Below, one piece after another: positions 18,098 to 56,408 of a DNA stretch of 64,000 bases (its first letter is position 1; every line of letters starts with the position of its first letter). Source of the stretch: Leptotrichia sp. oral taxon 223 (GTDB lineage: Bacteria > Fusobacteriota > Fusobacteriia > Fusobacteriales > Leptotrichiaceae); contig NZ_JABXYU010000001.1 of assembly GCF_013394795.1 (NCBI RefSeq), forward strand, positions 1,240,001 through 1,304,000, given 5' to 3'. A program made the position numbers and the translations under genes. The notes beneath the pieces were generated by a model. The model made no database searches. It was not told where the DNA came from and saw only the letters and a list, made by a program, of their open reading frames with translations.

Positions 18098-18580
18098 ATG
18101 AAAATACGCAGATTTGAAGAAAAAGACGCTAAAAAAGTATCTGAATTGATTATTGATACACTGCGGAAAACAAATATAAAAGATTATTCTGCTGATTCAA
18201 TAGAAAATTATGTAAATAATTTCCAGCCTGAAAATATTCTTAAAAGAGCCTCGTGGACACATTTTTACGTTGTCGAAGAAAAGAGCAATATTATTGGATG
18301 TGGAGCAATTGCACCATATTGGGATAAAATTGATGAAAGTTCTTTATTTACTATTTTTATCTCGGCTGAATATCAGGGAAAGGGAATAGGACGAAAAATT
18401 ATTGAAACATTGGAAAAAGATGAATATTTTTTAAGAGCCAAAAGAATCGAGGTACCTGCATCCATTACAGCTGTCCCGTTTTATAAGAAAATGGGATATA
18501 GCTACAAAAATGGAGTAAACAAAGCAGATGATGAAGGAATTGTAAGAATGGAAAAATTTAGAAAAGATAAAGTGAGATAA
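18098..18580 (+). CDS. GNAT-family N-acetyltransferase
   Basis: The 160-residue protein has the GNAT fold: IRRFEEKDAKKVSELI at the start, a beta4 strand before the acetyl-CoA pyrophosphate loop QGKGIGRKII (about residue 95), and the C-terminal VPFYKKMGYSY motif. Substrate unknown. AGGAG precedes the ATG. It lies 31 bases after pheS and is probably read with it. Confidence 0.85.
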   Translation: MKIRRFEEKDAKKVSELIIDTLRKTNIKDYSADSIENYVNNFQPENILKRASWTHFYVVEEKSNIIGCGAIAPYWDKIDESSLFTIFISAEYQGKGIGRKIIETLEKDEYFLRAKRIEVPASITAVPFYKKMGYSYKNGVNKADDEGIVRMEKFRKDKVR

Positions 18581-18589
18581 TTTTTGAAA

Positions 18590-19432
18590 ATGAAAGAAAA
18601 AATATTAGGAAAAACAGTTGGAAAAGCTGGAATTTCACAAGTTCTAATTATAAAAACTACATTTATTATGGCAATTTGTATTATTTTGGGATTTTTCCTT
18701 ATAATTTCGTCACTTGTGAACTGGGGAAAAAGTTATTTTGAGTTTTTATTCTGGATTGGAATATTCATTATATCACTTGCACCAATTCAGTTTTTATGGC
18801 TAAAAATGGAAGAAAATTCAGTTGGAAAATATATTTTTTATGAAAATGGCTTTGAAGATGTCTTGAAAAAGAAAAAAATATTTTTTAAAGATGTAAAAAA
18901 TTATTTTTACTTGAATTTGAAAAATGGTTCTGATGATGTTGAATTTATCGTTATTGAAATAGAAAATCAAGAAAAATTAGAAAAAATTACAATAAATTTA
19001 AAATTAAACAAATTGGCTTCAAAATTATTTGTAAAAAATTATGTTGAATTTGTTTTGAAAAATGAATTTGATAAAAAAGTTAATAATCAAGATGATTTTG
19101 AATTTAAGTTTGGAATTATTGAAGAAATTGATTCTGCGAAAGATAAGATTTTTAGCTTGAATATGGATAAAAATTTGGAAAAAGTCAAAATTTCTGAATA
19201 TATTTTTTTAGATAAAAATGGAATTAGAGTGGAAAATCAAAAAGGCAAGATTTTGGAAAATTATTTTTGGAAAGAGATTGTAAAAATTTCGGTTTTAGAA
19301 AAAGAGAAAAATGAAGATATACAAATTGAAAGTGAAAATGGAGAAGTAATTTTTTCAAAAAATATGAAGTATATAGAAAAACCTGAATTATTTATAAAAA
19401 TAACAAAAAATATTTTTAAATTTTATAAATAA
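18590..19432 (+). CDS. membrane-anchored protein of unknown function
   Basis: About 280 residues. Two adjacent transmembrane helices lie near the N-terminus (roughly residues 20-45 and 50-72), followed by a ~200-residue hydrophilic Lys/Glu/Asn-rich domain with repeated FxDVKNYFYL-type strands that may be PH-like; no family recognised with certainty. The ATG at 18590 is chosen over a TTG at 18584; neither has a strong ribosome site. It ends where repeat element H begins. Confidence 0.5.
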   Translation: MKEKILGKTVGKAGISQVLIIKTTFIMAICIILGFFLIISSLVNWGKSYFEFLFWIGIFIISLAPIQFLWLKMEENSVGKYIFYENGFEDVLKKKKIFFKDVKNYFYLNLKNGSDDVEFIVIEIENQEKLEKITINLKLNKLASKLFVKNYVEFVLKNEFDKKVNNQDDFEFKFGIIEEIDSAKDKIFSLNMDKNLEKVKISEYIFLDKNGIRVENQKGKILENYFWKEIVKISVLEKEKNEDIQIESENGEVIFSKNMKYIEKPELFIKITKNIFKFYK

Positions 19433-19950
19433 ATAACTATTAATAAATATTTTTTCTATAATTTATATGTTTTTCTTTTTTATAAAGCAAAGGGGAACAG
19501 TCGCTATCCCCTTTTATTTCGCAATATTAGTTATTTCAATTTCTTCAAATTATAACATCTGAAGATTTTGGCGAAAGTGCTACGCACTAATCCCAGCTTG
19601 TCTAAGCATTTTTTGGAAATAAAATTGAAACTCGCTTTTTAATAAAAGTTATTATAAACTCTCTAAATTTTAGCAATTTAAAAATCTTGAAAAAGCTCAG
19701 ACAATCAATTTTATTCCAAAAAAATCACGACATTTTAATTCAATTACAATGATTGTTTGATTAAAACAAAAATCAAGCAAAATTTCGTTAAAAGAAAAAG
19801 AACTGTTTGAGATTTTTGAGTGTAATTTAAATTGTAATTACTTAAAGAAATGAAATAATCTTTATTAAAAATCGAGTTTTCTTTTTCTTTTATAAGAAAG
19901 TTTTGCGTAAAGCGTGGGTGCAGGGAGATGGCGTTTGATCTCCCTGCTTA
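19433..19950 (+). repeat. structured 0.5-kb repeat H, copy A
   Basis: Non-coding element filling most of the 646-base gap before pheT. The left end has an AT-rich block then a hairpin (GCAAAGGGGA ... TCCCCTTT, 19487-19514). The right end has a perfect ten-base-pair hairpin (19920-19947) with loop GGCGTTTG. The interior has blocks shared with copy B, such as AGCAAAATTTCGTTAAA, GCTTGTCTAAGCATTTTTTG and AAAATCACGACATTTT. Copy B lies in inverted orientation at 53896-54410. The last ~130 bases before pheT have only a plain AT-rich leader. Confidence 0.85.
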
Positions 19951-20078: not shown

Positions 20079-22475
20079 ATGCTGATTTCGTTGAACTGGT
20101 TAAAGCAGTATATAGATTTAGATGGAATAGAAATAAATGAAATGGAGAATGCCCTTACTATGATTGGGCAGGAAGTGGAAAAAATCGAGGTGCTGGGGGA
20201 AAACTTGGAAAATGTTGTAACGGCACATATTGTTGAAAAGGAGATGCATCCTGATTCGGATCATTTGACGATTTGTAAAGTGGATAATGGGAAGGAAATT
20301 TTGCAGGTTGTATGTGGTGCATCTAATCATAAGGCTGGGGATAAGGTTGTTTTAGCACAGGTTGGAGCAAAACTGGCTGAAGACTTTGTTATTAAAAAAG
20401 GGAAGATAAGAGGTGTGGAATCAAATGGAATGATTTGTTCAGAAGAAGAACTGAATATTGGCAAGGATTCTGATGGGATTATGATTTTACCTCAAGATAC
20501 ACCTGCCGGAATACCAATGAAGGAATATTTGGGAATTAATGATACTGTGTTCGAACTGGAAATTACGCCAAATCGTCCTGATTGTCTGTCGCATATTGGA
20601 ATTGCAAGAGAACTGGGGGCTTATTACGGGAAGGAAGTTAAATATCCTAATTTTGTGATAAATACTGAAAGTAGCGAAAAAACAGCTGACAATATTTCAG
20701 TTGAAATTGCAGACAGCAATTTGGCAAAAAGATATGTGGCTAGAATTATTAAAAATGTAACGGTTAAGGAAAGTCCAAAATGGCTTAAGGAAAGAGTGGA
20801 ATCTATCGGAATCAGAAGTATTAACAATATTGTAGATGCTTCAAATTTTGTTATGATGGAACTTAATCAGCCTAATCACGCTTTTGATCTGGATAAAATT
20901 GAAGGTGGAAAGATTGTTGTGAGAGCGGGGCTTGAAAATGAAAAACTGGTTACGCTTGATGAACAGGAAAGAGAGTTAAATAGTGATGATATTGTAATTT
21001 CGGATGGAGTAAAAGCTGTGGCACTTGGTGGTGTAATGGGCGGAGAAAATTCACAAATTACTGAAAATACAAAAAATATCCTTCTGGAAGTGGCAAACTT
21101 TAACTCGCAAAATGTGAGAAAAACTTCAAGAAGATTGACTTTATCAAGTGATTCTTCATACAGATTTGAAAGAAGAGTGGATGAGGAAAATGCGGTTAAT
21201 GTGATAAATAGACTTGCAAATTTGATTCAGGAAGTAGCAGGTGGAGAAATATTGGCTGGAGCTGTTGACAATTATCCTGTCCCTTATGAGAAAAAATCTG
21301 CTGAACTTAATTTTGAAAGACTGAACCGTTTTGTTGGGAAAGTAATTCCTCGTGAAACTGTTATTGGAATTTTGACTAGACTTGAAATCGAAGTTGTAGA
21401 TAATGGAGAAACTTTGACATTGACTGCACCAAGTTACCGAGATGATTTGGAAAATGAGCAGGATTACTTTGAAGAAATTATCAGAATGTATGGTTTTGAC
21501 AACATCGAAAACATTTTACCAAAACTGGATATTAGTGAACAGCCAGTTATTGACACAACAAAACTTTCTACGCAGGTAAAACTTATTGCAGCAAATGCAG
21601 GACTTAAGGAAGTTATCAACTACAGCTTTGTTCCAAAAGATGCGATGGAAAAAATAAAATATACAGTTGTACAAGAAAAATTGATTGACGTGCTAAAACC
21701 AATTACAGAGGATTTTGTAACATTGCGTCCGACATTGCTTTACAGCCTTATCAAAAATGCAAAGGACAATATCAATAGAAATGTTTCAAATATCAGATTC
21801 TTTGAAGTGAGCAGAACTTTTGAAAAAGCCGAAGAATTGGCAAAAGAAGAAGTGAAATTGGGAATAATTCTGGCTGGAGAAAACGACAAGACATTGTGGA
21901 ATCCAAAACCTGTTCCTTACGATTTTTACGATTTGAAAGGAATTGTAGAAGAAATCTTTACACAGCTTAAATTCAATAACTATATGATAAAACGTTCTGA
22001 ACAAAGCCAGTTCCACCCTGGACGTTCAGTTGATGTGTTTGTGGGACGTGAATTAATTGGAAGCTTTGGAGAAATTCATCCAGATGTGTTGGAAAACTTT
22101 GACTTAGGGAAAACATCTGTTCTAGTTGGAGAATTTAACATTGACTTGCTTCAGAAATATATTGGTAAAAAGGTAAATTATCAAGGAATTGTAAAATATC
22201 CGGCAGTGCCAAGAGATTTTGCATTCGTTATGAAGGAAGAAATCCTAGTTGGAGATGTATTAAAAACAATTCAGAAAATTGACAAGAAAATTGAAAAAGT
22301 GGAACTGTTTGACATTTATCAAGGTGCAGGAGTGGTTCCAGGAATGAAGAGTGTGGCAATCAGCGTGGTGTTAAGAGATAAGAATAAAACGCTGGAAGAA
22401 AAGGAAATTATTGATATTTCCAATAAAATTGTGGCTAAGGTTGAGAAGGACTATGGTGCAGTTTTAAGACAATAA
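20079..22475 (+). CDS. pheT: phenylalanine-tRNA ligase beta subunit
   Basis: The 798-residue length is typical. Domains in order: an N-terminal tRNA-binding OB fold (about 40-150, with HPDSDHLTICKVD), B3/B4 editing domain (about 205-400; ARVIKN-type start, NNIVDASNF, LNQPNHAFDLDK), B5 (about 405-475), the catalytic-like core, and a C-terminal ferredoxin-fold anticodon-binding domain (KYPAVPRDFAFV to the end). It completes the enzyme with PheS 2 kb upstream. AAGGAG precedes the ATG. Confidence 0.96.
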   Translation: MLISLNWLKQYIDLDGIEINEMENALTMIGQEVEKIEVLGENLENVVTAHIVEKEMHPDSDHLTICKVDNGKEILQVVCGASNHKAGDKVVLAQVGAKLAEDFVIKKGKIRGVESNGMICSEEELNIGKDSDGIMILPQDTPAGIPMKEYLGINDTVFELEITPNRPDCLSHIGIARELGAYYGKEVKYPNFVINTESSEKTADNISVEIADSNLAKRYVARIIKNVTVKESPKWLKERVESIGIRSINNIVDASNFVMMELNQPNHAFDLDKIEGGKIVVRAGLENEKLVTLDEQERELNSDDIVISDGVKAVALGGVMGGENSQITENTKNILLEVANFNSQNVRKTSRRLTLSSDSSYRFERRVDEENAVNVINRLANLIQEVAGGEILAGAVDNYPVPYEKKSAELNFERLNRFVGKVIPRETVIGILTRLEIEVVDNGETLTLTAPSYRDDLENEQDYFEEIIRMYGFDNIENILPKLDISEQPVIDTTKLSTQVKLIAANAGLKEVINYSFVPKDAMEKIKYTVVQEKLIDVLKPITEDFVTLRPTLLYSLIKNAKDNINRNVSNIRFFEVSRTFEKAEELAKEEVKLGIILAGENDKTLWNPKPVPYDFYDLKGIVEEIFTQLKFNNYMIKRSEQSQFHPGRSVDVFVGRELIGSFGEIHPDVLENFDLGKTSVLVGEFNIDLLQKYIGKKVNYQGIVKYPAVPRDFAFVMKEEILVGDVLKTIQKIDKKIEKVELFDIYQGAGVVPGMKSVAISVVLRDKNKTLEEKEIIDISNKIVAKVEKDYGAVLRQ

Positions 22476-25222: not shown

Positions 25223-25261
25223 AACATAAACTTAAATATTATTATGAATGATTTGAAAAAA

Positions 25262-25405
25262 TCGAAAGATAGGGAAGTAAGTGCGATTCTTACACTGTCC
25301 CGCAACCGTGAAAAAACTGTATTTTACAGTTTTCAAGTCGGATAACTATCCATAATAATTATTCATTAATTGACTACGGCAGATGGTTAGATGAAATTTA
25401 AATTC
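25262..25405 (+). promoter_or_regulatory. cobalamin (B12) riboswitch
   Basis: The conserved core is plain: GGGAAGTAAGTG...CTTACACTGTCCCGCAACCGTGA (25272-25311), a variable stem (ACTGTATTTTACAGT), then AAGTCGGATAACTATCC (25335-25351). The canonical element has ACTGTCCCGCAACGGTGA and AGTC-GATACCTGCC, so this is a somewhat divergent member. The B12-box kissing loop would be in the region up to 25405. It is followed by an intrinsic terminator, so high adenosylcobalamin should stop transcription of the transporter operon. Confidence 0.88.
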
Positions 25406-25527: not shown

Positions 25528-27150
25528 ATGAAAAATTCATTCAAAACGATTATCATTATGTTGATAATGGGAATTATTTTTGCTTGCCAGCCAAAACAGA
25601 AAGATGCAGCAAAAGGAAAAACGGAAAAATCCGGAAAAATTACATTGGCATTTAATCAGGATCCTGTTGGAAATTTAAATCCGCACGAATACTTGCCAAG
25701 CCAGTTTATCACACAGGATATGGTTTACGATGGTCTTGTATATTATGGAGAAAACGGGGAAATTAAACCGATGCTGGCAGAATCTTGGAATATTTCCAAA
25801 GATGGTAAAACTTATACTTTCAAATTAAGAAAAAATGTAAAATTTTCAGACGGTTCAGATTTTAATGCAAAAAATGTTGTAAAAAACTTTGACACTGTCT
25901 TTTCTAAGCAAAACAAGTCAAATCACTCATGGTTTGCATTTACCAACCACTTAAAATCATATAGGGCAATTGATGACTACACATTTGAAATAGTTCTAGA
26001 CACACCTTACACTGCAACGCTGTATGACTTGGCAATGATACGTCCTATACGTTTTCTGGGAGATGCTGGATTTCCTGAAAACGGAGATACTTCCAAAGGG
26101 ATTAAAAAACCTATAGGAACAGGTGCCTGGGTATTAAAAGAACATAAAAACAATGAATATGCAGTTTTTGTAAGAAATGAATATTACTGGGGAGAAAAAC
26201 CTGCCGCCTCAGAAGTTGTAATAAAAGCTATTCCTGACAGTGAAACACTTGCACTTCAATTTGAATCAGGTGATATTGATCTAATTTATGGGAACGGATT
26301 AATCAGCCTAGATAGATTTGAAGCATACAGACAAGATAAGAAATACACTACAGCCACTTCTGAACCAATGTCTACAAGAATGATACTTTTAAATACTACA
26401 AGCCCTATTTTAAAAGATCTTAAGGTAAGACAGGCATTAAGTCACGCCGTAGATAAGCAAAGCATAGCAAAAAATATATTTGGCGGTATTGAAAAGCCTG
26501 CTGATACGATTTTTGCACCAAATGTGCCTCACACAAATATAGAGCTTACAAAATATAATTTTGACTTGGCAAAAGCGCAGGCATTGCTTGATGAAGCAGG
26601 ATGGAAAAAAGGTGCTGACGGTATGAGAGAAAAAGATGGTAAAAAAATGATTTTATCTTTCCCTTACATCAGTTCTAAAGTTACAGATAAAAACGTAGGA
26701 GAATACATTCAAGGAGAATGGAAAAAAATTGGTATCCAAGTTGACTTAAAGGCAATGGAAGAAAAAGCATACTGGGAAAATGCAACTGCAAAAAATTATG
26801 ACTTAATGTCTGACTATTCATGGGGTGCTCCTTGGGATCCGCACGCTTACCTGGCTGCAATGGCTGATGATTCAGTTAATGGAACAAATCCAGCTTATGC
26901 CGCACAGCTAGGCTTACCTATGAAAGCTGAACTGGACAAAACGATTAAAGCACTGCTAGTTGAACCTGATGAAAATAAATTAAATGAAATGTATAAATAC
27001 GTATTAACTACTTTACAAGAGCAGGCCGTATATATTCCAATCAGTTATCAGGCTTTACTAAGCGTTTACAGAACAGGAGAACTGGAAGGCGTGAAATTTA
27101 TGCCTGAAGAAAACAGGCTCCCTGTATGGACAACAGTAAAAGTAAAATAA
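25528..27150 (+). CDS. Nik/Dpp-type ABC transporter, substrate-binding lipoprotein
   Basis: The 540-residue SBP_bac_5 family protein captures ligand outside the membrane for the permeases encoded downstream. The lipobox IFACQ gives a lipidated Cys at about 20. Family motifs: LNPHEYLPSQFITQDMVYDGLVYY near the N-terminus, LAESWNISKDGKTYTFKLRKNVKFSDG, and ALSHAVDKQSIAKNIFGG. NikA-like nickel, dipeptide and other ligands share this fold. The B12 riboswitch upstream suggests cobalt, a cobalt chelate or a corrinoid. The sequence alone cannot decide. Confidence 0.88.
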   Translation: MKNSFKTIIIMLIMGIIFACQPKQKDAAKGKTEKSGKITLAFNQDPVGNLNPHEYLPSQFITQDMVYDGLVYYGENGEIKPMLAESWNISKDGKTYTFKLRKNVKFSDGSDFNAKNVVKNFDTVFSKQNKSNHSWFAFTNHLKSYRAIDDYTFEIVLDTPYTATLYDLAMIRPIRFLGDAGFPENGDTSKGIKKPIGTGAWVLKEHKNNEYAVFVRNEYYWGEKPAASEVVIKAIPDSETLALQFESGDIDLIYGNGLISLDRFEAYRQDKKYTTATSEPMSTRMILLNTTSPILKDLKVRQALSHAVDKQSIAKNIFGGIEKPADTIFAPNVPHTNIELTKYNFDLAKAQALLDEAGWKKGADGMREKDGKKMILSFPYISSKVTDKNVGEYIQGEWKKIGIQVDLKAMEEKAYWENATAKNYDLMSDYSWGAPWDPHAYLAAMADDSVNGTNPAYAAQLGLPMKAELDKTIKALLVEPDENKLNEMYKYVLTTLQEQAVYIPISYQALLSVYRTGELEGVKFMPEENRLPVWTTVKVK

Positions 27151-45819: not shown

Positions 45820-46116
45820 TTATTCAGCCTCAGCTATTCTTGGCTTAGGCAGTATGCCTTCAATTTCATTATGAGGACGTGGTATTACATGAATTGAAAT
45901 TAATTCTCCAACTCTTTCAGCAGCCGCAGCCCCTGCATCTGTCGCAGCCTTTACAGCCCCGACATCTCCTCTTACTAGCACTGTTACCAGTCCTCCACCA
46001 ACGTGTTCCTTTCCAATCAAAGTTACATTGGCAGCTTTCACCATCGCATCTGCAGCTTCTATTGCAGCTACAAGCCCTTTAGTTTCAATCATTCCTAACG
46101 CATTTAATGTTGCCAT
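45820..46116 (-). CDS. eutM: microcompartment hexamer shell protein EutM, copy 1
   Basis: The 98-residue BMC-H protein starts [20 protein letters not shown] and has the pore region KEHVGGG. Nearly identical over the first ~85 residues to the copies at 47708 and 48009, differing at the C-terminus ([17 protein letters not shown]). Major facet protein of the ethanolamine compartment. Located between eutE and the EutK-like gene, so it may be expressed separately from the two leading copies. Confidence 0.95.
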
Positions 46117-46118
46117 CG

Positions 46119-46877
46119 TTATTCCTCCTTATTATTTCTTACTAAAATTTCTATCAATTTTTTCTTAGGCATCGTCTTTATTTGATTCCATGTGTAGCCA
46201 ATTTTAAGGTTGTTGACCTTTGTCTTTAAATCCACTACTTTCATGTCCTGATACTGTTTTTTTACCTTTTTTGTTTCCTCATCTTTTTTTTTTAAAGTTT
46301 CTGTTATTGAAACTTCTTCATTTTCCTGAATAATATTATTTTGGTTCCCTGTTTCTGCATTTTCCGTTATTTCCTGAACTGATTCTTCTATTATTCCTTC
46401 TGTTTCCGTTTCTGCAATATCTTCAGGCTGCTCTTTGATAAATTGGTTTTCATTTTCATTTTCAATATCTGCATTTTCATTTACTGCCTGCTCAATCACT
46501 TCTTCTGTCATTATTTGCACTTCAGTTTTTTCATTATCATTGTCCGATTTTTCAATAATGTCTTCATCGTTTTGCACATCGGCAGTTTTTTCATCAGATT
46601 TTTTTCCAATGTCACTTATCAGAATTTTCTTTGTTTCAGAAGCCACTCTTGCAATAACGTTACTGCTCAGGAAATTTCCAAGCCTTCTGGCACTTTCACT
46701 TGCGGCATCCACAGCGGCATTTACAGCAGCCACATCTCCCGCTACTTCAATGGTCACAATTCCACCTTTTACATAGTAGCAGTTTGTAAGTGTTACATCA
46801 GCTGCCTTCAAGGCAGCATCTGCAGCTTCTATTGCAGTCACAAGCCCCCGTGTTTCCACATATCCGTACGAATCCAT
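46119..46877 (-). CDS. eutK: EutK-like BMC protein with long acidic linker and C-terminal binding domain
   Basis: The 252-residue protein has an N-terminal BMC-H domain (1-~90; [23 protein letters not shown]). A ~115-residue linker follows that is extremely rich in Glu, Asn and Thr, then a basic C-terminal domain (about 205-252; [35 protein letters not shown]). E. coli EutK has a BMC plus a short nucleic-acid-binding C-terminal domain; here the linker is far longer and disordered. Two bases after eutM1. Shell minor component, function of the tail inferred. Confidence 0.75.
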
Positions 46878-46884
46878 CTATCTA

Positions 46885-47328
46885 TCACCTTCTAATCTGC
46901 TCGGAATCATCTTCCAAATATTTCACAAGTTCCTCAATCCCTTCATTCTCATAGGAACTTACAGCAAAAACTCGCTCAGCTCCTGCATTTTCCAATATTT
47001 CACGAGCCCTTTTCACATCTTTACCCAAATCAGTCTTAGTTACAATTCCGATTACAGGCTTTGTAAAAGCTGTTGAAAACCCTGGCGGAAACACATTATG
47101 CTCCTCGTCACACGCCTGCACCATCCCAATAACATCACAGTCATACGAGCTTACAATCAGCGCCTTGTAAAGCATCCTGTTTTCCATGTATTCGCCTGGA
47201 GTGTCAAGTATGTCATTGGAATATGTCAGCATCTGCGTTTTTTCATATTTTATGTCAAGTCCATGTATTCTCTGGGTTAATGTTGTTTTACCGCACATGG
47301 ATTTTCCTATCAAAAGTATCTTTTTCAA
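46885..47328 (-). CDS. eutP: EutP/PduV-family small GTPase-like protein
   Basis: The 147-residue protein has a P-loop (LIGKSMCGKTT) and G3/G4-type motifs (ILDTPGEY, VTKTDL). EutP homologues bind nucleotide, and in Salmonella EutP is reported to have acetate kinase activity; PduV is a shell-associated GTPase. The start is a TTG with GAGG upstream, almost overlapping eutS (two bases). No other start fits. Confidence 0.88.
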   Translation of the reverse strand: MKKILLIGKSMCGKTTLTQRIHGLDIKYEKTQMLTYSNDILDTPGEYMENRMLYKALIVSSYDCDVIGMVQACDEEHNVFPPGFSTAFTKPVIGIVTKTDLGKDVKRAREILENAGAERVFAVSSYENEGIEELVKYLEDDSEQIRR

Positions 47329-47330
47329 TT

Positions 47331-47681
47331 TTATGACCTCGTTATCTGAGTTATGCTAAATCTCAGGACATTTTCAAAATATGAAACCACCTCATTTACA
47401 GCGGCTTCTATACTTCCCACATCTCCGCTTATTACAACCGATCCTGTAAACCTGTCTACAAATCCTATTTCCACTTCGGCACTTTTCGTAGCCAGATCCG
47501 CCGCAATGATTGCTGCTTCTCCTGGAGTTATTGTGAGTATTCCTATTGCATTTGTCTTATTTTCAGAAAGTCCTATTTTTTTTGATAAATCTCTTTGCGG
47601 ATTTGCAATTATATGAGCCAGAGTCAACTGTCTGCCAGGTACGTATTCCTGAATCATTCTCTGTTTTTTTTCTTCTTCCAT
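47331..47681 (-). CDS. eutS: microcompartment shell protein EutS
   Basis: The 116-residue circularly permuted BMC protein has [25 protein letters not shown] near the N-terminus and [35 protein letters not shown]. EutS hexamers are bent by ~40 degrees and can seed shell edges. Third gene of the operon. Confidence 0.95.
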
Positions 47682-47707
47682 TTGACAAATCCTTTCTAAA
47701 ATTTATT

Positions 47708-47983
47708 TTATCTAGGCAAAATAGTTTCTACTTCCGCATGTGGACGTGGAATTACGTGAACTGAAATCAGTTCCCCAACTCTTTCAGCAGCCGCAGCTCC
47801 CGCATCTGTCGCAGCCTTTACAGCCCCAACATCTCCTCTTACAAGAACTGTTACAAGTCCTCCTCCTACATGCTCTTTCCCAATTAATGTCACATTTGCG
47901 GCTTTAACCATCGCATCTGCAGCTTCTATCGCAGCCACCAGCCCTTTTGTTTCTATCATTCCTAACGCATTTAATGTTGCCAT
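47708..47983 (-). CDS. eutM: microcompartment hexamer shell protein EutM, copy 2
   Basis: The 91-residue BMC-H protein, nearly identical to copies 1 and 3 and ending [10 protein letters not shown]. The ATG at 47983 has GGAGG at the right distance; a second ATG two codons upstream is too close to it. Near-identical at DNA level to copy 3 only 25 bases away, so a recent tandem duplication. Confidence 0.93.
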
Positions 47984-48008
47984 AGCCATTACCTCCTAAA
48001 ATTATTTA

Positions 48009-48293
48009 CTATTCTCTTCCTTTTGGCAAAATAGTTTCTACTTCCGCATGCGGACGTGGAATTACATGAATTGAAATCAGTTCCCCAACTCTTTCAGCAG
48101 CCGCAGCTCCCGCATCTGTCGCAGCCTTTACAGCCCCAACATCTCCTCTTACAAGAACTGTTACAAGTCCTCCTCCTACATGCTCTTTCCCAATTAATGT
48201 CACATTTGCAGCTTTAACCATTGCATCTGCAGCTTCTATCGCAGCCACTAGCCCTTTTGTTTCTATCATTCCTAATGCATTTAATGTTGCCAT
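48009..48293 (-). CDS. eutM: microcompartment hexamer shell protein EutM, copy 3
   Basis: The 94-residue BMC-H protein ends [11 protein letters not shown]. First gene of the operon, after the antiterminator leader. The ATG at 48293 has AGGAGG upstream; the longer frame into the leader is not supported. Confidence 0.93.
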
Positions 48294-48740: not shown

Positions 48741-48830
48741 GAATGCGAAATAAAGGAAAATAACGATTGATTTCTCTTGCTTATATAAAAAGAAAAAACA
48801 TGAATTATAAAAAATATTTATTAACAATGA
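48741..48830. repeat. structured repeat H, fragment (end hairpin only)
   Basis: AAAGGAAAAT, loop AACGATTG, ATTTCTCTT, followed by AAGAAAAAACATGAATTATA and AATATTTATTAA. These match the end of copy B in order and orientation. The rest of the element is absent. Between here and 48999 I see only AT-rich sequence without a gene. Confidence 0.55.
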
Positions 48831-48993
48831 GCAGTTTTTCAAAATTTAAGTAAAAATCCCTTATATGGATACTTAAAAATTAGGTTTGATTTTTTTCATC
48901 AAGGCTGTCAAATTAATTATTATAGAATTTTATTTCTATTTTTTAAATGGAGTCTAGCCTAGGTGCAAGATTTGTGACAATGAGAATCCTGCG

Positions 48994-51205: not shown

Positions 51206-53770
51206 TTATTGTTTATCTTCGTCCAATCCAGGCTCTTCCGTAATTTTTACCACCGAAGCAATTTTTTCATTATTTCTGACTTTCATTATTCGCACACCAT
51301 ATGCCGAACGCCCTATTACTGATACGTTATTGACGCTCGTTCTGATTAATGTACCTTCTGATGTAATAAGCATAATTTCATCATTTTCCTTGACAATTTT
51401 TACATCCACGATTTTTCCAGTTTTATCATTAAGTTTTGCATTGATAATTCCCTTTCCGCCTCGAGATGTCAGTCTGTATTCTAATAACTTAGTACGTTTT
51501 CCATATCCTTCCTCAGTAATTGTAAGGATTCTTACTTCGGCGTCATCCATTTCTGAATTAATGATTGCCGCACCTACAATTCTGTCCTTATCCCGAAGAG
51601 TTATTCCTCTCACTCCAGCAGCTCCAGTTCCCATGCTTCTTACGTCTTTTTCAGAAAATCTAATGGCAATGCCGTTTCTTGTAGCCGCAAAAATCTCATC
51701 TTCCCCACTTCCGCTTGTAAGCCCGATAAACATCACTTCATCATCTTCATTCAGCCTTATAGCTCTTTTTCCAGCTTTTTTGATATTGTCAAACAATGTC
51801 AGCTCAGATTTTTTCACAACTCCATTCCGTGTGACAAAGAATAGATTTTTATTTTTTTCAAATTCACGGACTTTTATTATTGTGCTAACTTTTTCATCAT
51901 CATCTAGATTTATGATATTTCCTATCAGTTTTCCACGTGCCTGTTTTCCAGTTTCAGGGATTTCGTACACTTTTATGCTGAATACTTTTCCTTTCGTTGT
52001 GAAAATAAGCAATGTGTCAAGAGTCTTTGCTATATACATGTCTTTTACGACATCGTCTTCTATTGTATTTGTAGCGTTTACTCCGATTCCTCCACGTTTT
52101 TGAGAACGGTAAGTATCAATTGCCATACGTTTTACATAACCCTTTTCTGTAAGTGTTACAACAACTTCCTCATCCTTAATCAAGTCTTCTATGCTGATTT
52201 CGGCTCTTGCATTTCTGATTTCAGTTCTACGTTCATCTCCAAAATCTTCTTTTAATTTAAGCGCTTCTTCTTTAATTATACCATATATTTTTGAATCATC
52301 GGACAAAATTCCAGTTAATTCTTCAATTAATAGCATAAGTTCATTATATTCCTGATTAATCTTATCTCTTTCAAGTCCAGTAAGCCTCTGCAATCTCATA
52401 TCCAGAATAGCTTTCGCCTGAATTTCCGAAAATCCAAATTTTGCAATTAATTCAACCCGTGCAACATTTACATCCTTTGAAGCACGTATAATTCTAATTA
52501 CTTCCTCAATGTTATCAAGTGCAATTTTGAATCCTTCCAAAATATGAGCTCTATTTTTAGCCTTTTTCAGCTCAAATTCAGTTCTTCTTGTAATTACTTC
52601 AAACCTATGTTCCAGATATTTCTGAAGAACCTGCTTTAAATTTAATACTCTCGGTGCATTATCCACAAGTGCAAGCATAATTACACCAAATGTATTTTGC
52701 AAATCGGTAAACTTGTAAAGACTGTTCAGAATTAATTCACTTTCTTCACCTTTTTTCAATTCAATTACAATTCTGATACCGTCCCTATCAGTTTCATCCC
52801 GCAAGTCTGATATTCCAGTAATTTTCTTCTGTCTTACTAAATCAGCAATTTTTTCAATAAGTCTGGCTTTATTTACCTGATACGGCAATTCTGTAACAAT
52901 AATCGACTCTTTTCCAGTTTTAGAAGCTTCAACTTCCACACGTCCTGCAACCCGCAGTTTTCCGCGTCCAGTCCTGTACGCATCATAAATTCCCTGTTTC
53001 CCATTAATTATACCGCCAGTTGGAAAATCCGGCCCTTTTACATAAGTAATCAGTTCATCAATCGAAATTTCAGGATTATCAATCAATGCAATAATTCCAT
53101 CAACTACTTCTCCTAAATTATGCGGCGGAATATTTGTAGCCATTCCGACTGCAATCCCATTTGCCCCATTTAGTAGCAAATTAGGCAGTTTTGCAGGCAA
53201 CACAACTGGCTCATCCAGACTTTCATCAAAGTTCTTTCTGTAGTCAATCGTATCTTTTCCAATATCTGCAAGCAGCTCCTCAGTAATTTTAGCCATTCTA
53301 GCTTCCGTATACCGCATTGCCGCCGCTTCATCCCCGTCAATCGAACCAAAGTTTCCATGTCCGTCAACAAGTTCATATCTCATATTAAAGTCCTGCGCCA
53401 TTCTAACCATTGCGCCATAAACTGAAGAATCCCCGTGTGGATGGTATTTCCCCAGTACATCCCCGACAATTCTTGCCGATTTCTTAAATGGAGTCTTATG
53501 GCTCATACCCATTTCACTCATGGAAAACAGAATTCTTCTATGCACGGGCTTTAATCCGTCACGCACATCAGGCAGCGCACGGCTCACAATTACACTCATC
53601 GAATAATCCAGATAAGCCGCCTTTATCTCATCCTCGATATAAACATTAGATTCATTCGACAAATCTGTAGCCTTAGGCAGCCCTTCTACAACTATCTCCC
53701 TATCATCATTCTCATCCATTTCCGTTATCTCTTCTTCTCTTTTATCGTCATCTCTGATATCGTCTGACAT
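51206..53770 (-). CDS. gyrA: DNA gyrase subunit A
   Basis: The 854-residue protein has a breakage-reunion domain with catalytic Tyr in [10 protein letters not shown] and the quinolone region [20 protein letters not shown]. The C-terminal beta-pinwheel carries the GyrA box QKRGGIG. The N-terminal ~35 residues are an acidic extension (Asp/Glu-rich) before the usual start. The residue matching E. coli Asp87 is Gly, which I believe is normal in fusobacteria. Together with GyrB it introduces negative supercoils. Confidence 0.97.
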
Positions 53771-53895
53771 CCTGCACCTCTTTTCTTCTCTTTCTTTACA
53801 ACAAGTGAACTATTAATTAAGCTATTTCCTAAATTTTTATTACAAGTTATCTTAATTAGTAATTGTTTTTCCTTTTTTATATTAACTCTTTTAAC

Positions 53896-54410
53896 GCAGA
53901 GGTATCAGACGCCATACCTCTGCACTCCCGCTTACGCAAAACTTTCTTAATAAAGAAAAAATAAAACTCGATTTTGAATCAAGATTATTTTAACATAATT
54001 AACTAAATATAATTTAAAATTTGTTTCAAAATCTCAAACAGTTATTTTTTCTTTAACGAAATTTTGCTTATTTTCTATTAACATATCTATTTATAATTAA
54101 ACTAAAAATGTCGTGATTTTTTTGGAATGAAATTGACTGTTTGAGCTTTTTCATTTTCTTTAAATCGTGATTAATTTATAGAGTTGATAATAACTTTTGT
54201 TAAAAGCGAGTTTCAATTTCGTAGTAATCCAGGTTTATCCAAATAATAAATGTTTAGACTACTTTCCCAAATAAAATTTGGGAATATTTCAAAAAATGCT
54301 TAGACAAGCCGGGATTGCAAAGGGGATGGCGATTGTTCCCCTTTGCTTTTAAAAAAAGAAAAAACATAAATATTATAGAAAAATATCTATTAATAAAAAT
54401 AACTTTTCTC
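53896..54410 (-). repeat. structured 0.5-kb repeat H, copy B
   Basis: Inverted relative to copy A. It fills the gyrB-gyrA gap (655 bases). Its right-type hairpin (53896-53923) is a perfect ten-base-pair stem with loop GGCGTCTG on the minus strand. Its left-type hairpin (54317-54346) is a perfect ten-base-pair stem GCAAAGGGGA/TCCCCTTTGC. The interior carries the same conserved blocks plus a ~70-base insertion absent from copy A (54235-54300). No coding frame. Confidence 0.85.
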
Positions 54411-54425
54411 AATTTTAATCAAAAA

Positions 54426-56408
54426 TTATATATCTAAGTTCCTTACATAATTCGCATTATCTTCAATAAACTTCCTTCTCGGCTCAACTTTATCCCCCAT
54501 TAGAATATTAAACATTTTATCCGCATATGAAGCGTCTTCCATTGATACTTTTAACAATGTTCTCACTTCCGGATCAAGGGTTGTTTCCCAAAGTTGTTCT
54601 GGATTCATTTCTCCCAGCCCTTTGTAACGCTGGATTGTGTATTTTCTTCCGTCATTTTCCAAGACTTTTGTCACTTGTTTTAGCTGATCGTCTGAATAGG
54701 CGTATCTGATTGCTTTTCCAGCCTGAATTTTGTATAAAGGCGGCTGCGCTATGTAAATATACCCTTCGTTTATCAATTCTCTTAAATGTCTGTAAAAGAA
54801 TGTCAGCATCAATGTTCTTATGTGAGCCCCATCGACATCGGCATCCGTCATTATTACGATTTTGTGGTATCTCAATTTTTCAAGGTTCATATCATCGCCA
54901 AATCCAGCTCCAAATGCAGTTATCATATCACGTATTTCAGCATTTTCAAGCGTACGGTGAACACTTGCCTTTTCCACATTCAATATTTTTCCACGAAGCG
55001 GCAGGATTGCCTGAAATCTTCTATCTCTTCCCTGTTTTGCAGAACCTCCCGCTGAGTTTCCTTCGACTATGAATATTTCTGATTCAGCAGGATCTTTTGA
55101 AGAGCAGTCAGCTAGTTTTCCAGGAAGCGATCCCACTTCCAGATTACTTTTTCTTAGCACAAGTTCCCTTGCCTTTTTAGCCGCTTCTCTTGCCTTTTTC
55201 GACATTGTCATCTTTTCTATTATTTTTTCAGCCGCTTTCGGATGATCTTCCAAATAAAATTTTAAATTGCTTCCGACAATATTTGAAACAATTCCTGTAA
55301 CTTCACTGTTTCCAAGCTTAGTTTTTGTTTGTCCTTCAAATTGCGGTTCGGGAATTTTTACGCTTATTATGCAGACAAGCCCTTCTCTCACATCTGTTCC
55401 TTGAAATGTGCCACTTTTTTCCTTTATCAAATTCATCTGTTTTGCTATGTCGTTAATTGTTCTAGTAAGCGCTGTCCTAAATCCACTGACATGAGTCCCA
55501 CCTTCGTGAGTATTTATATTATTTACAAATGAATAGACAATTTCTCTTTGAGCGGTTGTGTAATTCATCGCAATTTCCACTTCGACTACTTTTGCTCCAA
55601 CTTTTTTTAAATAAACGTTTCCATTTTCATCCACAGCTTCCACTTCTTTGGCAGGCTGAGTTTCAAACGAATCCGCCATATAAATGACGTCATTTACAAT
55701 TTTTTCATCATCCGTTATTTCATTCAGAAAATCTTTTATTCCGCCCTCAAAATGAAATTCCTCCTCTTTTATTTCATCTTTTTTTCTTTCGTCAATCAAT
55801 TTTATTTTAAGCCCTTTATTTAAGTATGACAGCTCTTTTAATCTCGACTCCAAAACAGAATAGTCATAAACTGTTGTCTCAAAGATTTCATCGTCCGCTT
55901 TAAATCTAATGACCGTTCCATGCGCATCAAGCGGTGCATCTCCAATTTTTTCAGGAGATGAAATCGGCACTCCTCTCTCAAATGTTTGTCTTACTATCTG
56001 TCCATCTCTTGTAACAGTTGCTTCCACCCATTCAGATAGAGCATTGACAACCGAAATTCCTACCCCGTGTAGTCCTCCCGATACTTTGTAGTTGTCGTTA
56101 TCAAATTTTCCTCCAGCGTGAAGCACAGTCATAACCACTTCTAATGTAGATTTTCCTGTCTTATGCATTGCAACGGGGATTCCACGTCCATTATCCGTTA
56201 CTTCAATAATATTCCCCTCAAGTATTCTCACAGTAATTTTATCACAAACTCCTGCAAGCGCCTCATCCACGCTGTTATCCACAATTTCCCACACCAGATG
56301 GTGAAGTCCACGTGAGGAAGTTGATCCGATATACATCCCTGGACGCTTTCTAACCGCTTCCAGCCCCTCCAGAACCGTAATCGAGTCTGCTCCATAATTG
56401 TTAGCCAT
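54426..56408 (-). CDS. gyrB: DNA gyrase subunit B
   Basis: The 660-residue protein is of the short type without the proteobacterial insertion. The GHKL ATPase domain has [18 protein letters not shown] and [14 protein letters not shown]; the Toprim domain has [33 protein letters not shown] and [14 protein letters not shown]. The C-terminal [18 protein letters not shown] is typical. The gap to gyrA, usually a few bases, is here 655 bases and filled by repeat H. Confidence 0.97.

Follow-up and report, generated by a model that had tools for sequence, protein, structure and literature searches.

The gap between gyrB and gyrA in Leptotrichia sp. oral taxon 223 is largely filled by one copy of a repeat, repeat H, which very probably belongs to a genus-wide family of non-autonomous, MITE-like mobile elements whose conserved core is two structured hairpin modules set back to back, subject to the movement and exchange proposed below. 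In the window, meaning the whole 64,000-nucleotide stretch analysed here (contig NZ_JABXYU010000001.1, positions 1,240,001 to 1,304,000), the open reading frame (ORF) list places gyrA at 51206-53770 and gyrB at 54426-56408, both on the minus strand, and the intergenic region at 53771-54425 (655 nt). The original prediction that most of this gap is repeat H is confirmed, as copy B (53896-54410, plus strand), delimited by self-comparison, a genome DNA search and module profiles, covers 515 of the 655 nt. It was also correct in placing a second copy between pheS with its trailing genes and pheT: self-comparison and the DNA search locate copy A at 19438-19947 (minus strand), between the second ORF after pheS (18584-19432) and the start of pheT at 20079. 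The two copies are oppositely oriented and share 75% identity in an alignment of 500 bases (E 3e-79), and neither contains an ORF of at least 100 aa in the window ORF list.

Copy B is a module pair, L on the minus strand and R on the plus strand. Its L-type module (53895-54068, minus strand; profile and alignment) comprises a long stem, P1, and a hairpin, P2, and reads outward to gyrA, with P2 at 53897-53924 (minus strand) carrying the loop GGCGTCTG in the sequence. The R-type module (54109-54346, plus strand), located by profile and given the R-type structure from alignment, likewise has P1 and P2 (the latter at 54317-54346, plus strand, from the sequence) and reads outward to gyrB. The 3' arm of its P1 holds a block that copy A lacks; such a block had been foreseen as approximately 70 bases at 54235-54300 and does exist, but with other limits and size, namely 65 nt at 54220-54284 (plus strand), folding as two small hairpins. 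In copy A, profiles place the R-type module at 19488-19732 (minus strand) and the L-type module at 19776-19947 (plus strand). An extra hairpin of the CTTTCGC...GCGAAA type, absent by eye from copy B, lies between the linker and P2 of the copy A R module at approximately 19512-19588 (limits by eye). Elsewhere in the window, a third intergenic region contains a partial R2-type module (48949-48993, plus strand, 22 bits), and the direct repeat at 48764-48814 is also similar to copy B at its outer end. Separately, in a row of short ORFs at 45848-48293, a direct repeat of 269 nt occurs three times, the copies being 85-97% alike.

These two copies are real but are not a pair, as had been supposed, since they belong to a genome-wide family. 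A DNA query with copy B gave 96 matches in the window's own genome (G000, 2.58 Mb), hand-grouped into 40 loci, a number that shows the repeat not to be a product of chance. The same query matches all 13 genomes of the genus set (G000-G012), with 2 to 96 matches per genome. In gyrA, the closest named record is Leptotrichia sp. oral taxon 879 (98% over 200 residues), which places the genus as Leptotrichia. A covariance model, R1, matched 14 of 98 Fusobacteriota genomes; 13 are of this genus and the 14th has a single weak match, and the per-genome counts are lower bounds, scoring having taken at most 28 candidates per genome. The plasmid and phage collections gave no match to the element. No Rfam family matched it at gathering score in a search of the whole window, and a search of five element loci with E up to 1 gave one sub-threshold L20-leader match, away from the element. 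The window does contain a cobalamin riboswitch (RF00174, 42.6 bits) at 25229-25367 (plus strand), upstream of the ORF at 25528. Limited literature searches on intergenic and miniature inverted repeats in Leptotrichia, and on repeats in Fusobacterium, gave no published account of such a repeat. Repeat H thus belongs to a high-copy, genus-wide family, and the split of the gyrase genes is real but probably not special to gyrase.

The gyrB-gyrA junction is empty and short (38-69 nt) in five of the 13 genomes (G006, G008, G009, G011 and G012), and the corresponding spacer of a Leptotrichiaceae MAG is approximately 100 nt without the element. The other eight hold an element, the kinds being judged by eye: one common to G000 (655 nt) and G001 (592 nt), a deleted form in G007 (271 nt), a reversed element in G002, G003 and G004 (569-602 nt; in G003 also by profile), and a third kind in G005 (430 nt, with a run of N) and G010 (361 nt). 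Tolerance of insertion between subunit genes is borne out by this distribution, and the outcome envisaged as a refutation, the same gap lacking the element in every relative, is contradicted by the five short, empty junctions. If the long spacer were ancestral and had decayed in certain lineages, its presence in eight of 13 genomes would be accounted for; in its simple form this reading is refuted and retains almost no probability, given that three or more contents, different or reversed, are seen at the junction, that genomes at greater distance (70-73% identity at the gyrA start) have the short junction and that recent copies elsewhere have target duplications. At the pheT junction, the element and the extra ORF 18584-19432 occur together in eight genomes and neither occurs in five, with the element in opposite orientation, by eye, in G005 and G010. 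The second ORF between pheS and pheT (window region 18098-19432) is found only in the eight of 13 genomes that carry the element; in G009, G011 and G012 the pheS-pheT gap holds another ORF.

Modules were located and typed by profile searches. Each spans approximately 120-250 nt and is composed of a long imperfect P1, a linker with GGG and the hairpin P2. The tip of P1 carries the motif ACTGTYTGAGC...GCGAGTTT, the linker near the foot of P2 is GGG(A/T)T-like, and P2 is a stem of approximately 10-13 bp with the loop GGCGNNTG. At least four module types (R, L, L2 and R2, the last with the loop GGCAATGA) have distinct P1 sequences yet retain both the pairing and the unpaired motifs; by eye, the tip, linker and P2-loop motifs are common to types with differing stems. 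In adjacent pairs of profile matches above 25 bits, drawn from loci of G000, G003 and G008/G006/G011, the left-hand module lies on the minus strand and its right-hand partner on the plus strand in 51 of 51. The combinations are L/R (26), R/R2 (18), L/R2 (3), L2/R2 (2) and L2/R (2), and none of the 51 pairs joins two modules of one type, an absence that avoidance of perfect palindromes would explain.

Covariation was assessed in alignments of 24 R modules and 18 L modules (17 distinct), where standard pairs make up 99.7% (R) and 99.5% (L) of cells. Ten pairs in each alignment are changed on both sides, a figure reached by none of 500 shuffles and by no slid version; the number of further pair types in the R and L alignments shows no excess over shuffles. 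G.U cells number 121 against three A.C cells, and 17 pair columns against three (sign test p 0.003), although the rows behind these counts and the covariation are related and hence not independent events. The strand favoured by the G.U/A.C comparison reads outward in both inverted modules. Covarying stems, together with tolerance of G.U but not of A.C, make it probable that the modules are maintained as single-stranded structures with a fixed polarity, most likely RNA. Quasi-palindrome templated repair is able to mend both arms of a hairpin at once, and every full copy read contains near-palindromes; the hairpins might on these grounds matter only as double-stranded or cruciform DNA, with covariation arising from repair and not from selection. 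This is quite unlikely, as in both inverted modules the G.U/A.C asymmetry runs with the polarity of the module, and the motifs shared, by eye, among types with different stems also speak against it.

Evidence for mobility comes from related genomes, in which 15 loci were read for target duplications (12 in G008, two in G006 and one in G011). Both ends were recognised in 12 of these, three lacking a recognised end. The 12 two-ended copies, from G008 and G006, have exact 10-bp duplications in 10 cases, 9 bp in one and none in one, compared with a duplication of at least 8 bp in one of 132 mismatched-flank controls; they measure 432-477 bp, except for one copy with a damaged left end. It is these 10 exact duplications, together with the high-copy structured family, that argue for a MITE-like mobile element. 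The terminal inverted repeats of G008 are imperfect, sharing TAAAA...TTAGGGG with an alignment score that 18 of 1000 shuffles attained. End patterns number 62 left and 51 right in G008 and five and one in G006, with none in G009, G011 or G012; a genus-wide search at up to three mismatches gave 0-7 matches outside G008, near the reversed-pattern control in most genomes. No G008-type ends are recognisable in the gyr and phe copies of the window's own genome, and target duplications at its 40 loci show no excess over mismatched flanks, the copies being diverged and AT-rich. By extension from the sequences of these relatives, the own-genome copies would be mobile as well.

A transposase that duplicates 10 bp would have moved the elements in trans. 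Searches with the end patterns and of the IS256, PF01609 and Y1 families revealed no autonomous parent sharing the ends of the element; by eye the end patterns pair solely at MITE length, with no spacing that would fit a transposase gene. IS256 was rejected as the mover, since 11 of 14 copies show duplications of 8 bp and its ends are others; one of four comparisons of IS256 with element ends is clearly above chance (3 of 1000 shuffles, the remaining three being reached by 46, 171 and 412). G008 has 14 open IS256 copies and one with a stop, and in the remaining 12 genomes IS256 is either missing or disrupted. G008 has thus undergone both this recent IS256-family expansion (1364 bp, 8-bp duplications; L100, L104, L107, L109-L119) and the MITE expansion. 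PF01609 transposases, absent from G008, were likewise rejected, as were Y1 transposases, the two Y1_Tnp loci of the own genome not being bordered by modules in the stretches read. Those two genes, along with the inverted hairpin doublets, the mosaic build and the intergenic positions, would suit a REPIN/BIME-type origin, in which a REP-associated Y1 (HuH) transposase mobilises the element through its hairpins. Such an origin is nevertheless extremely improbable in view of the clean 10-bp target duplications and of the foot of P2, which has the GGG(A/T)T-like linker in place of a GTAG/GTGG tetranucleotide; moreover, both Y1 genes look, by eye, IS605/IS200-like, with unrelated ends.

A single vehicle does not explain all copies, because young-looking copies in G000 are bounded by another inverted repeat, ATACTAAACC...GTTTAGTAT, without a clear target-site duplication. 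This inverted repeat constitutes a second, very abundant MITE-like family, with 94 pattern matches in G000 (e.g. L012 3804-3920); it is approximately 115-145 bp when empty, lacks modules at some sites and encloses them at others. The mobile unit might instead be an RNA-functional module pair carried in at least two unrelated transposon shells, the 10-bp-duplicating ends of G008/G006 and the ATACTAAACC ends of G000/G003, and reshaped by swapping modules and plug-in hairpins. We regard this as rather unlikely; if true, the back-to-back order would give each read-through transcript one sense module, in either orientation.

Under the preferred reading of a MITE-like family, inserted copies would go on to swap pieces by homologous recombination, so that modules are exchanged and hairpins added or removed, and one site could come to hold different elements. 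The comparison of G000 with G003 covers 14 element sites that align on both flanks (leaving out the one-flank rows L134, L146, L147 and L159), the G003 set being a subset of its copies, 33 loci from DNA-query and R1 matches. Judged by hand on module type and strand, type or orientation differs at six: gyr, L132/L016, L135/L012, L136/L032, L152/L018 and L155/L022. Ectopic gene conversion is the simplest reading of this turnover, and repeated insertion at a hotspot may alternatively account for the six differing sites. The gyr spacers of G000 and G001 match at 588 positions, with five base differences and two single-base gaps, and the 65-nt insert is present in G000 only. The insert occurs at the same place in four other own-genome copies and three G003 copies (seven G000 matches were reduced to five, two being false by eye, L043 and the window minus strand). 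Four of the seven small differences between G000 and G001 fall within 42 alignable columns around the insert (p 0.0007), a region chosen after looking, and this post hoc choice weakens the cluster as evidence of exchange. The insert difference between such near-identical junctions suggests exchange between copies.

With regard to function, 27 of the 40 own-genome copies lie between co-directional genes, eight between convergent and five between divergent genes, the corresponding numbers for 200 other neighbouring ORF pairs from the same loci being 167, 12 and 21; because of this comparison (27/40 and 167/200), the copies are not enriched inside operons. They are intergenic, with seven of 40 overlapping small ORFs of doubtful status, and the gyrB-gyrA insertion would be one among many tolerated intergenic insertions. 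An intercistronic role had been raised on seeing both window copies between subunit genes, which are co-directional; the element would then be kept in operons to terminate, attenuate or process the transcript. Strong hairpins agree with such a role, as does the one terminator-like match per spacer, the outward P2 hairpin, where 0.1-0.2 are expected. The proposal is not supported overall and is very unlikely: in addition to the context counts, the gyrB-gyrA element is reversed in G002-G004, and among solo modules flanked by co-directional genes three are sense and nine antisense (n=12, p 0.15), by which a benefit of sense orientation for solo modules was rejected. Promoter-like sites in both spacers occur at shuffle level, and divergent promoters in the element centre were rejected on these scans and the 25-86 nt available there. 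An inserted element may affect the transcript in which it lies. That the structured core is itself active or selected as RNA is plausible, at somewhat below even confidence.

Several known systems resemble the element in part. Correia/NEMIS and ERIC are small, with inverted ends, many intergenic copies and transcripts that form long stem-loops; ERIC is co-transcribed with its neighbours in Yersinia, and Correia size variants differ by an internal block (PMC2229807). The Leptotrichia element is like them in being small and intergenic with inverted ends, the stem-loop transcripts being those reported for these systems, but it is approximately 430-740 bp as opposed to 100-200 bp, has two back-to-back covarying modules and differs in the 10-bp duplications of its recent copies and in its interchangeable hairpin blocks. 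CIR of Caulobacter/Brucella has two long inverted-repeat arms and a linker, with structure conserved between species (PMC2229807). Both features find a parallel here, whereas the Leptotrichia element has two hairpins per module and at least four module types. REPINs/BIMEs are inverted, mosaic and intergenic doublets of hairpin units (PMC6006769), all of which applies here, but with a unit of approximately 120-250 nt, no GTAG/GTGG foot and target duplications. The Chunjie MITE of Geobacter is reported inside an operon without disturbing it (as cited in PMC10969869), a likeness of operon position by description.

Together, these results give the odd gyrase gap an explanation in the element family. 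The two junctions offer a natural series, empty, filled, reversed and partly deleted, at two essential operons across 13 related genomes, and two near-identical sites differ by the gain or loss of a hairpin block. Structured transcripts have been described for other bacterial MITEs, among them NEMIS, ERIC and CIR (PMC2229807, PMC10969869). What the Leptotrichia family brings together is evidence of mobility with unusually strong covariation and strand polarity, which makes testable an old question, whether structured bacterial MITEs serve a function as RNA in their own right or are mere parasites.
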